A stretch of DNA of 64,000 bases. Source: Methanocaldococcus lauensis (GTDB lineage: Archaea; AGJL01; Methanococci; Methanococcales; Methanocaldococcaceae). The stretch covers positions 620,001-684,000 of the forward strand of contig LR792634.1 in assembly GCA_902827205.1 (NCBI GenBank), in the 5' to 3' direction. Below, piece after piece: positions 57,313 through 63,300 of the stretch. Numbering within the stretch: position 1 is the first letter of the stretch; the number at the start of each line of letters is the position of its first letter. The position numbers and the translations under genes were made by a program. The notes beneath the pieces were generated by a model. That model made no database searches. It was not told the DNA's origin and saw only the letters and a list, made by a program, of their open reading frames with translations.

Positions 57313-57392
57313 AGCCATCATTATAATTTTTTATTTTATAAAATTTAATTTATAAATTTAAATTAACAAATTCAAGTCTCGAAAATAATAAA

Positions 57393-57428
57393 ATGTTGGA
57401 GGGTCCCTTACGGGTTCCCCTCCAACAT
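57393..57428 (-). promoter_or_regulatory. SECIS element of fwuB
   Basis: On the mRNA (minus) strand: stem ATGTTGGAGGG, then GAA, CCC, loop GTAA, GGG, A, and closing stem CCCTCCAACAT (11 bp perfect). GAA opposite a single A below a 3-bp GC stem is the archaeal SECIS signature that recruits the Sec-specific elongation factor system. It lies about 115 bases past the fwuB stop codon, further than the other SECIS elements here. Confidence 0.95.
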
Positions 57429-57443
57429 CCTCTAACGTGTAAC

Positions 57444-57489
57444 GCAGGATGTAGGATACCCAAAGATGGTTAGCGTTGCACGCCCACCC
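57444..57489 (-). other. fwuB 3'-UTR segment complementary to the fwuB coding region after UGA
   Basis: On the plus strand, 57444-57462 reads GCAGGATGTAGGATACCCA and 57477-57489 reads TGCACGCCCACCC. Both are identical to fwuB sense sequence (minus-strand positions 58463-58445 and 58380-58368). The transcribed UTR therefore has their complements, 19 and 13 bases, with no mismatch and in nested order. The first target begins about 23 bases after the UGA. Pairing would bring the SECIS close to the Sec codon. A local imperfect stem (57436-57445 with 57473-57482) also exists. Confidence 0.85.
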
Positions 57490-57541
57490 TGATATCTCAT
57501 TAAGTATAAATTCAATATTTATATTTTTCTTATTAAATTTT

Positions 57542-58849
57542 TTAGAGCATCTCTTTAACTTTCTTAATGAGCATCTTCAATATCTCTCTGTCTGGTAAAA
57601 CGCCTTCTGGAGGATCAATAACTTTTCTTAATTTAATTGGAACACCATCCATTCTATATGCTGTTCCTTCAACTTCAACTCCAGCAATTGCTGGGGGGAT
57701 TATAATATTCGCTAATTGAGTTGTTGGAGTTTCATGAGGTTCTATACATACTAATGGTATTTTTGCCATGTGTTTTACAGCTTTTTGTGGGAAGTGAGCC
57801 CCTGGGTCTGAAGCAATATTTAACATCATGTCAGTTTCTCCTCTTTGTAATAAATCGTTAGCTGTAGTCTCTCCAGGATTGTATCTTGGGTAACCTCTTG
57901 AGAAATCAATGCCAAATGGATAACCTGTAACCCAAGTTAAGACCTGGTTGAATCCATTTACGTTGTAGTGACCTCTCATTGGCATTAATCCGAATTTTGT
58001 ATATGCATTTAAATCAATTACTAATTGAATAGCATTATCAATGTTTCTATGCTTACCCCTTGTCATTGTTACTCCCATTGCGAAAAACAACTCTCCAAAC
58101 TGAGCATTTTTACAAATTTCAACTGCCTCATAGATTAAATCAACTGGAACTCCAGCGACTCTATCAACTTGTAATTCAAATCCTTTTAACACTGCTCTCA
58201 TTGCACTAACTAATTCATAATCTTTGTGGGGTTCAACCTGTAAGTGTATATCAGCCAATTTCGCAGTATCTGTCTCTCTTGGGTCTACAACAATCATAGT
58301 TCTGTCTTCTCTTCCTCTTTCTCTGAAAAATCCTCTTGCAAATATTGAATATCTACTCATGTGTCTTGGGTGGGCGTGCATTGGATTACTTCCCCAAAAT
58401 ATAACTACATCAGCTCTGTTTTTAACTTCTCCTAATGTACAAACTGGGTATCCTACATCCTGCAATGCCATAACTGAAGGTCCGTGTCAAACACTTGCTG
58501 TATTGTCAATAACTGCCCCAACTAATTCAGCTAACTCAACTCCATACATTTGTGAATGACATTCAGTTGCACTCCATCCATAAATTAAAGGTAAGGATGA
58601 TTCAACTAATAATCTTGCAGTCTCTTCAATTGCTGTATCATAACCAACTTTTTTGAAATCATCTTTTTTGTTCTCTCTCATTAAAGGTTCAGTATATCTA
58701 ACAGCCCCCTCGAAGTGCATAAACTTTGCATTTCCAATTCTACAAGCATGTCTTGTCCCTACTATGTGGTTATCTTCAACTAATATCTCTAAATCATCAC
58801 ATAATGTCGCACAAAATGGGCATACTACATTTCTAACGACTTTTACCAT
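57542..58849 (-). CDS. fwuB: Tungsten formylmethanofuran dehydrogenase subunit B (selenoprotein)
   Basis: Catalytic molybdopterin subunit of the enzyme that fixes CO2 as formylmethanofuran, the first step of methanogenesis. Translating through an in-frame TGA at 58489-58487 gives 435 residues: [20 protein letters not shown] (4Fe-4S motif), [19 protein letters not shown], then DNTASV[15 protein letters not shown] and [18 protein letters not shown]. Sec replaces the Cys that binds the metal. A SECIS lies in the 3' UTR. FdhA is excluded by length and by this N-terminus. Start follows GGTGAGTAAAT; vhuB is immediately upstream. Confidence 0.95.
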
Positions 58850-63082: not shown

Positions 63083-63187
63083 ACACATCCCCTTATAATT
63101 TGAATTTTATTAGTTTTAAATAGCGATCTATTAAATTAGTAAAGAGAAATTAGAAAGAGATAATTACGGGCACATGCCCTCCCATCA

Positions 63188-63220
63188 GCACCATCCTGGC
63201 AAAAAGCCTTCGGATGGTGC
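63188..63220 (-). promoter_or_regulatory. SECIS element of hdrA
   Basis: On the mRNA strand: stem GCACCATCC, GAA, GGC, loop TTTTT, GCC, A, closing stem GGATGGTGC (9 bp perfect). The inner pair is GGC/GCC instead of CCC/GGG, a compensating change that confirms the fold. It lies about 85 bases behind the hdrA stop. The Sec codon itself must be in the part of hdrA beyond 64000. Confidence 0.93.
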
Positions 63221-63241
63221 CTCATTTGGTATTTATCTACC

Positions 63242-63300
63242 CCCAATGTTGAGCTCATAACCTATGCCATAGTTATATGAATAGATGTGGAGCCTGTGCC
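63242..63300 (-). other. hdrA 3'-UTR segment holding reverse complement of hdrA-like coding text
   Basis: The plus strand at 63242-63268 translates as PNVELITYA, and at 63286-63300 as CGACA. Both look like HdrA: family members, as I remember them, have NVEL-TYSEV about 30-40 residues before a CTGCGAC(A/T)EVCP cluster. Since hdrA is on the minus strand, the transcribed UTR carries their complements, as in fwuB. The proposed targets lie outside the window. Within it, HdrA coding for KGCGACAGAC matches the second piece with two mismatches. Confidence 0.55.

Follow-up and report, generated by a model that had tools for sequence, protein, structure and literature searches.

How does a SECIS element that lies far behind a selenocysteine codon reach the ribosome that is meeting this codon? 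In the case of archaea, this route is described as open and the SECIS-binding factor as unknown (PMC11881835). The question is raised again by the fwuB locus in the window, i.e., the whole 64,000-nucleotide stretch of Methanocaldococcus lauensis DNA that was analyzed. We consider it likely that the 3' UTR of fwuB is a SECIS guide module, the guides of which would pair behind the UGA and hold the SECIS near the decoding ribosome. The best reading is that this guide would work in cis in the window genome and in trans in relatives, the same module probably being able to act from a separate RNA.

The fwuB locus and its guides

All features below lie on the minus strand and are given by their positions in the window.

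57542..58849, minus strand: fwuB (formylmethanofuran dehydrogenase subunit B), an ORF with an in-frame TGA read through; 435 codons, one in-frame UGA
58487..58489, minus strand: UGA of fwuB, presumed selenocysteine codon; Cys stands there in paralogues such as L015
58445..58463, minus strand: target A in the fwuB coding sequence, UGA+26 to +44; exact complement and covariation
58368..58380, minus strand: target B in the fwuB coding sequence, UGA+109 to +121; low codon diversity
57444..57462, minus strand: guide A' for fwuB in the 3' UTR, a 19-nt exact complement of target A
57477..57489, minus strand: guide B' for fwuB in the 3' UTR, a 13-nt exact complement of target B
57393..57428, minus strand: fwuB SECIS hairpin with a GAA/A internal loop, recognized by sequence, pattern match and model R1

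The gene matches its family (NCBIfam TIGR03129) with 674.8 bits. Offsets are counted from the U of UGA, with A beginning at 26 nt and B at 109 nt. The hairpin at 57393-57428 shows the GAA opposite A and the flanking G-C pairs by which methanogen SECIS elements are recognized, and it is scored at 39.1 bits by the R1 covariance model, among the 13 building sequences of which it is itself included. As in docked SECIS elements of the fdhA1 kind, the flank of the window fwuB SECIS is complementary to the ORF behind the UGA. The preliminary description of this DNA had already placed the two helices, of 19 and 13 nt and followed by the SECIS, at exactly these positions and had held them not to be expected by chance. 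Both statements agree with our data: the longest complement between UTR and fwuB is 19 nt, vs. a mean of 9.2 and a maximum of 12 nt when the 200 nt downstream of the stop codon were subjected to 100 dinucleotide shuffles. A third nested match (helix C, 57503-57520 with 58340-58357) is imperfect (89% of 18 nt) and overlaps a TATA-like octamer (57516-57523); it is probably not part of the docking system.

Docking-type complementarity across Methanococcales and in other selenoprotein genes

The sample consists of 36 genomes of the order, 34 of which gave some fwuB match. The 30 selenocysteine (Sec) fwuB loci represent 28 genomes plus L032 and L034, which are identical to L048 and L051; G010, with the gene split over contigs, and G029, with a fragment, were left out of the helix A analysis. 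A complement of at least 12 nt (12-26 nt) that starts at UGA+26 to +31 is present in 22 of these 30 loci, corresponding to 20 distinct genomes. In all of the 22 except L037 this complement is longer than the best one from 100 shuffles; the 12-nt limit overlaps the shuffle tail, and L037, like L114 among the hdrA loci, is counted without standing above its own shuffles. The eight loci lacking a 12-nt cis match comprise three from the window's genus with the module elsewhere (L010, L011, L012) and five Methanococcus-like ones with complements of 9-11 nt, two of which are not even at the site. A SECIS follows the gene in 27 of the 30 loci and is absent behind fwuB in G003, G008 and G012.

The geometry is nearly constant. 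The SECIS core stands 33-38 nt from the A' anchor in all 22 cis loci (29-31 nt in three further ones, L043, L044 and L046), and the distance from the stop codon to A' in the same 22 loci varies from 5 to 96 nt. No complement longer than 11 nt was found in seven Cys genes that have no SECIS downstream (L015, L016, L053, L087, L091, L092, L093) and whose site positions are nominal; L087 has a 10-nt match beside the site that lies within the shuffle range. Two other Cys genes, L040 (G018 fwuB; 9 nt at the site) and L088b (G033; 14 nt), are still followed by a SECIS-like element and look like cases of a recent Sec-to-Cys change.

The preliminary description had named related UTRs without complementarity or covariation as the outcome that would speak against pairing. 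In the case of A/A', covariation was found: 499 of 546 cells are paired in 26 genomes (23 cis and 3 trans, aligned on the UTR anchor), compared with 472.8 on average and at most 486 in 5000 between-genome UTR swaps. This count excludes L040-L042 (no anchor), L053, L015 and L016 (Cys) and the duplicates L032 and L034. Double-sided changes run through GATGTA/TACATC, GACGTA/TACGTC, GAGGTA/TACCTC, GAGATA/TATCTC and GAAATA/TATTTC. On the gene tree, 12 branches are double-sided compensatory, 11 one-sided and pair-keeping and 21 pair-breaking, the last mostly at the helix ends. Codon diversity is low at B (5 of 185 windows as low; 12 genomes) and weakly low at A (13/183). Directly before the SECIS of L036, L038 and L039, the UTR also carries a GCCCGTG-like stretch that, judged by eye, could pair with CACGGGC immediately downstream of the UGA and so may form one more helix.

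Three other selenoprotein genes (hdrA, selD and an fmdB-like paralogue) present the same picture with guide sequences of their own, the names vhuD, vhuU, fruA, hesB, fdhA and "fmdB-like" being those we take to apply. Family matches were found for hdrA and selD, those of hdrA below the curated cut-offs. In the window, hdrA has guides of its own (28 and 17 nt) in nested order, followed by a SECIS:

63241..63268, minus strand: hdrA own guide A', a perfect 28-nt complement of hdrA UGA+38 to +65; the target lies outside the window
63284..63300, minus strand: hdrA own guide B', a perfect 17-nt complement of hdrA UGA+154 to +170
63182..63229, minus strand: hdrA SECIS region, a match to Rfam flpD RNA (RF01737), with the R1 match inside it in L108

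Rfam's flpD RNA thus coincides with the window hdrA SECIS. Such docking of hdrA by its own flank (12-28 nt at UGA+28 to +53) is present in 17 of 30 loci, in 16 of them beyond the shuffles, and its register slides between genera; the other 13 loci have no 12-nt cis match. Codon conservation at the two hdrA targets A and B is unremarkable across the genus (221/353 and 208/354 windows as low). In selD, a complement of 17-21 nt at UGA+9 to +13 was found in 15 of 30 loci, each time above the best of 100 shuffles. These 15 are all the analyzed genomes of genera g1 (13) and g5 (2), and none of the 15 others has it. Across them 286 of 300 cells are paired vs. at most 281 in 5000 swaps, and the tree shows five double-sided compensatory and eight pair-breaking branches; UGA offsets in the selD and hdrA covariation rows are nominal. 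The hdrA genes of G015 and G022 and the selD genes of G018, G020 and G026 fall outside the sample, and the simple SECIS pattern missed or misplaced some elements (hdrA L130, L132; selD L143, L147, L148). The data suggest that g1 is Methanocaldococcus and g3 Methanothermococcus; the remaining genus names, genus habits, growth temperatures and the choice of the most heat-loving genera are assumed here.

An fmdB-like paralogue, 44-45% identical, carries a guide of its own (16-19 nt at UGA+30 to +32) in all five g1/g5 holders (L074-L078), and a third paralogue in G033 has a 16-nt guide match at UGA+32; no guide was found in the G022 paralogues (L079, L089). A different arrangement is seen in the fmdB-like genes of Methanococcus-like genomes and G029 (L080-L082, L084-L087), where a SECIS-like hairpin of bacterial style (TATTGGGGAACC...GGACTCAATG) is part of the coding region, about 97 nt downstream of the UGA. 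When each of these loci was scanned for hairpins, no second SECIS-like one appeared, and L087 has kept the intragenic hairpin although its codon is Cys. A search for a docking copy for the Methanococcus-like fmdB gave 10 matches, seven in fmdB itself and three (L206-L208) beside which no SECIS was recognized by eye.

In the window genome, docking goes with the distance between UGA and SECIS core. It is present in hdrA (1481 nt), fwuB (1072 nt), selD (1041 nt) and fdhA (472 nt, SECIS 5'), the latter with a 17-nt match as published for fdhA1. It was not found within the first 120 nt after the UGA in vhuD, hesB, fruA and vhuU, with distances of 400, 190, 88 and 85 nt, respectively. Farther along, vhuD has a 13-nt match at UGA+201, for which the flank used may include coding sequence.

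Instead of placing the SECIS, the pairing could regulate mRNA stability or translation through an antisense-like duplex. A bla reporter with added complementarity had its mRNA lowered about threefold at unchanged total activity (405 vs. 385 mU/mg), i.e., with a twofold activity per mRNA (PMC11881835), in line with such an effect. Yet, a stability duplex would predict neither the UGA-tied position and the near-fixed spacing to the SECIS, nor the absence from the four window-genome genes with a nearer SECIS and from the seven Cys genes without one, nor guides that stay with the SECIS at the three trans loci described below. We regard this explanation as quite unlikely.

A guide for a second gene and modules at other loci

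The proposed SECIS guide module of fwuB is not confined to fwuB targets. The preliminary description had the two helices right and overlooked a perfect 21-nt complement of hdrA that overlaps them, here called H':

57460..57480, minus strand: guide H' for hdrA, a perfect 21-nt complement of hdrA UGA+12 to +32
57385..57495, minus strand, approximate: predicted guide RNA (B', H', A', SECIS, T-rich tail), with guessed ends
57516..57523, minus strand: TATAAATA, predicted TATA-like octamer and candidate promoter of a separate module RNA

H' shares 3 nt with A' and 4 nt with B'. A guide of 21-23 nt for hdrA is present in the fwuB module of all 12 testable Methanocaldococcus genomes, and in the 12 genomes where both sides are readable 271 of 276 cells are paired. 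The tree provides only two compensatory branches, with two compensating changes in G003, and owing to the very low sequence variation the native value is reached in 40 of 5000 swaps. The target H is among the most codon-conserved parts of hdrA (5/354 windows as low; 11 genomes, G008 left out). In G004 and G006 the B' region offers an additional 10 nt of pairing with hdrA at UGA+35. In M. maripaludis, fwuB and hdrA are members of one operon (PMC11097638), and in the window they lie on the same strand and in the same order.

The exact B'-H' pattern occurs once in 13 of the 14 genomes of the genus and in none of the 22 others. It stands behind fwuB in ten genomes; in G003, G008 and G012, which form one clade (support 1.0), it is found elsewhere. 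In G012 the module, at 315232, is 447 kb away from fwuB, and the genes on either side of it, for FdhD and for a protein of the geranylgeranyl-reductase family, are on the opposite strand. The G003 copy comes after ksgA and is separated from fwuB by an opposite-strand gene, and in G008, a draft of 30 contigs, the module precedes a thiazole synthase gene on another contig than fwuB. Each of these copies carries B', H', A' and SECIS matched to the targets of its own genome, with 17-19 nt plus 10-14 nt for fwuB and 22-23 nt for hdrA. The A' anchor stands 29, 31 and 34 nt from the SECIS, two of the three values falling below the commonest cis range. Covarying matches to a separate RNA are seen for fwuB in all three trans genomes and for hdrA in 12 of 12 testable genomes, the latter with only the two compensatory branches given above.

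Behind fwuB of G003, G008 and G012, a covariance search without filters (E up to 10) detected no SECIS, and a scan for hairpins did not either. Within 6.5 kb around G008 fwuB there is no significant SECIS match, and around fwuB of G003 and G012 there are only two, both upstream, at the places of vhuD and vhuU. The same unfiltered local search gave no canonical SECIS match for hdrA of G013, G007, G012, G003 and G008, the hits 500-650 nt beyond hdrA being taken for the SECIS of vhuD, and it found one SECIS behind hdrA at nine other loci. The genome-wide R1 search missed the window hdrA SECIS, so absence in a genome-wide search is weak evidence and the key loci were judged by unfiltered local searches.

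Behind hdrA of L116, L117, L118, L121 and L122, only a short hairpin is left, bounded by ATGA and an end that contains GAT. These hairpins have no SECIS model match, and the loci represent the five genomes of the genus in which hdrA has no docking-like match either. The stretch from the fwuB stop codon to the module in G010 (L013/L196) and those behind hdrA in L123 and L124 are G+C-rich, look structured and share a GTGGGGAGTTcCGTTCCCCC-like motif; L196 and L124 had no match in Rfam.

The preliminary description had envisaged long-range delivery of the SECIS in cis. The geometry of helix A fits this idea, but cis delivery alone is too narrow for a module that matches hdrA and sits elsewhere in three genomes. 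The nested order of the helices is uninformative on cis vs. trans, because two antiparallel guides on a separate RNA give the same order. One could nevertheless suppose that docking acts in cis only, that fwuB of G003 and G012 uses the upstream SECIS of vhuU, and that the modules lying elsewhere are remnants or have another role. In both genomes this SECIS is located some 1.3 kb upstream of fwuB, for which it might act as a 5' element, and a 5' SECIS works in M. maripaludis (PMC11881835). Against this stand G008, in which fwuB lies beside other genes without a SECIS in the surrounding 6.5 kb (in a draft assembly), and the guides themselves, which in all three genomes still fit targets that have changed, as one would not expect of relics; two of these genomes are assembled in 1-2 contigs and 96-99% complete. 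A system restricted to cis is in our view unlikely.

With somewhat less assurance than for docking itself, we favor the reading that the module represents a small SECIS guide RNA (about 100 nt) that acts in trans. With its SECIS and separate guides for two mRNAs, fwuB and hdrA, this RNA would indicate to the ribosome, without being part of the message, which UGA is to be decoded as selenocysteine. It would lie behind fwuB in the window genome, perhaps with its own promoter, and be an independent gene in the clade of G003, G008 and G012, on which fwuB and probably hdrA would depend. In the window genome, too, the module may be made as a small RNA of its own. In 11 of 13 genomes, with cis as well as trans contexts among them, a TATA-like octamer begins 33-35 nt upstream of the module; it is absent in G003 and G010. 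At that place, an octamer appears in 0.3-1% of shuffles in the six genomes tested, where the shuffles are mononucleotide and the words were chosen after inspection; the cis cases are related, which leaves about four independent ones. The module has no match in Rfam in the window, G003, G008 or G012.

These copies also bear on the alternative offered by the preliminary description, an inverted partial copy of the gene without function. Copying between the arms could keep them alike and likewise produce matching changes on both sides, but the fwuB match ends within a few bases of the helix, and the guides of hdrA, selD, fmdB and fwuB differ in sequence at similar places, with a sliding register in hdrA. 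In addition, module copies at other loci still fit their targets and H' matches a different gene. We consider an inverted copy very improbable.

Proposed mechanism and comparison with known systems

In the proposed SECIS guide module, guide stretches 5' of the SECIS would pair with coding RNA about 10-65 nt behind the Sec UGA (26-44 nt in fwuB). The pairing would keep the SECIS, and whatever factor brings the Sec-tRNA, near the ribosome as it arrives at the UGA. The SECIS would hang from the UGA-side end of helix A, which begins 23 nt behind the UGA. Judged from ribosome footprint sizes, helix A would lie beyond the ribosome decoding the UGA and the duplex could therefore persist at that moment. 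Each passing ribosome would presumably melt the duplex, which must then re-form in every round. Co-folding at 85 °C leaves the guide part of the module open with only the SECIS folded, and the predicted gain from complex formation at this temperature, to which the energies are extrapolated, is -25.4 kcal/mol for fwuB and -16.4 kcal/mol for hdrA.

At the sequence level, support comes from exact complementarity, order-wide covariation of fwuB A/A' and that of selD, near-fixed spacing, the same arrangement in hdrA, selD and an fmdB-like paralogue, the second guide, for hdrA, and the module copies away from fwuB in three genomes. On these grounds we infer that the pairing takes place in vivo with a permissive or stimulating effect on recoding, and that the copies at other loci are expressed as RNA and function in trans; the docking of fwuB is seen as part of a wider scheme. 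Delivery of the SECIS to the UGA, the main proposal of the preliminary description, agrees with the near-fixed UGA offset and SECIS spacing and is the best explanation. Its other proposal, a block on readthrough until the SECIS complex binds, gains no support from these data.

The same description knew of no such arrangement for archaeal SECIS genes, but docking has already been described for the 5' UTR SECIS of fdhA1 (PMC11881835). There, flanks complementary to the ORF would place the SECIS 43 nt behind the UGA; they are conserved in Methanococcales and longer in thermophiles (PMC11881835, RNA Biol 2025). The fwuB SECIS of M. maripaludis is active in a reporter (PMC11881835), and in the bla reporter of this species a SECIS is functional at 520-679 nt (PMC9622424). 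Together with the unchanged bla activity, this means that docking is no absolute need in the mesophile. That selD docking is confined to g1 and g5 would agree with a need that depends on heat, as suggested for fdhA flank length (PMC11881835). For docking of fwuB, hdrA or selD and for a trans-acting SECIS, we found no print record in the open-licence literature searched. Older SECIS papers include Wilting 1997, Rother 2001 and Quitzke 2018.

Docking conserved over more than 1 kb provides a concrete, mutable answer to the question how a distant SECIS reaches the ribosome. If true, a trans SECIS would be a programmable recoding signal, in which a guide RNA determines the amino acid to be inserted at a stop codon of choice in a different RNA. 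It would explain Sec genes without their own SECIS and offer a tool for selenocysteine placement.

Several known systems share parts of this design. In archaeal C/D and H/ACA guide RNAs, guide stretches aim a structured RNA at its target and guide RNA modification; the likeness lies in the guide stretches on a structured RNA, and the difference in that theirs direct RNA modification. We know of no sequence-specific pairing of a eukaryotic SECIS to the UGA region. Similar to the fwuB element, the eukaryotic 3'-UTR SECIS lies far behind the stop codon, but it works with SBP2 (PMC2933860). The bacterial SECIS likewise ends up directly downstream of the UGA, but it adjoins the UGA in the message and is bound by SelB (PMC2933860), whereas here it would be brought in by pairing; base pairing would thus rebuild the bacterial geometry. 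The docked SECIS of fdhA1, from which the principle is known, is alike in that the flanks of an archaeal SECIS pair with the coding sequence behind the UGA. Unlike fdhA1, with its 5' UTR element and a single gene, the system described here makes use of the 3' UTR, extends docking to more gene families (fwuB, hdrA and selD), and adds a guide for a second gene and module copies at other loci.
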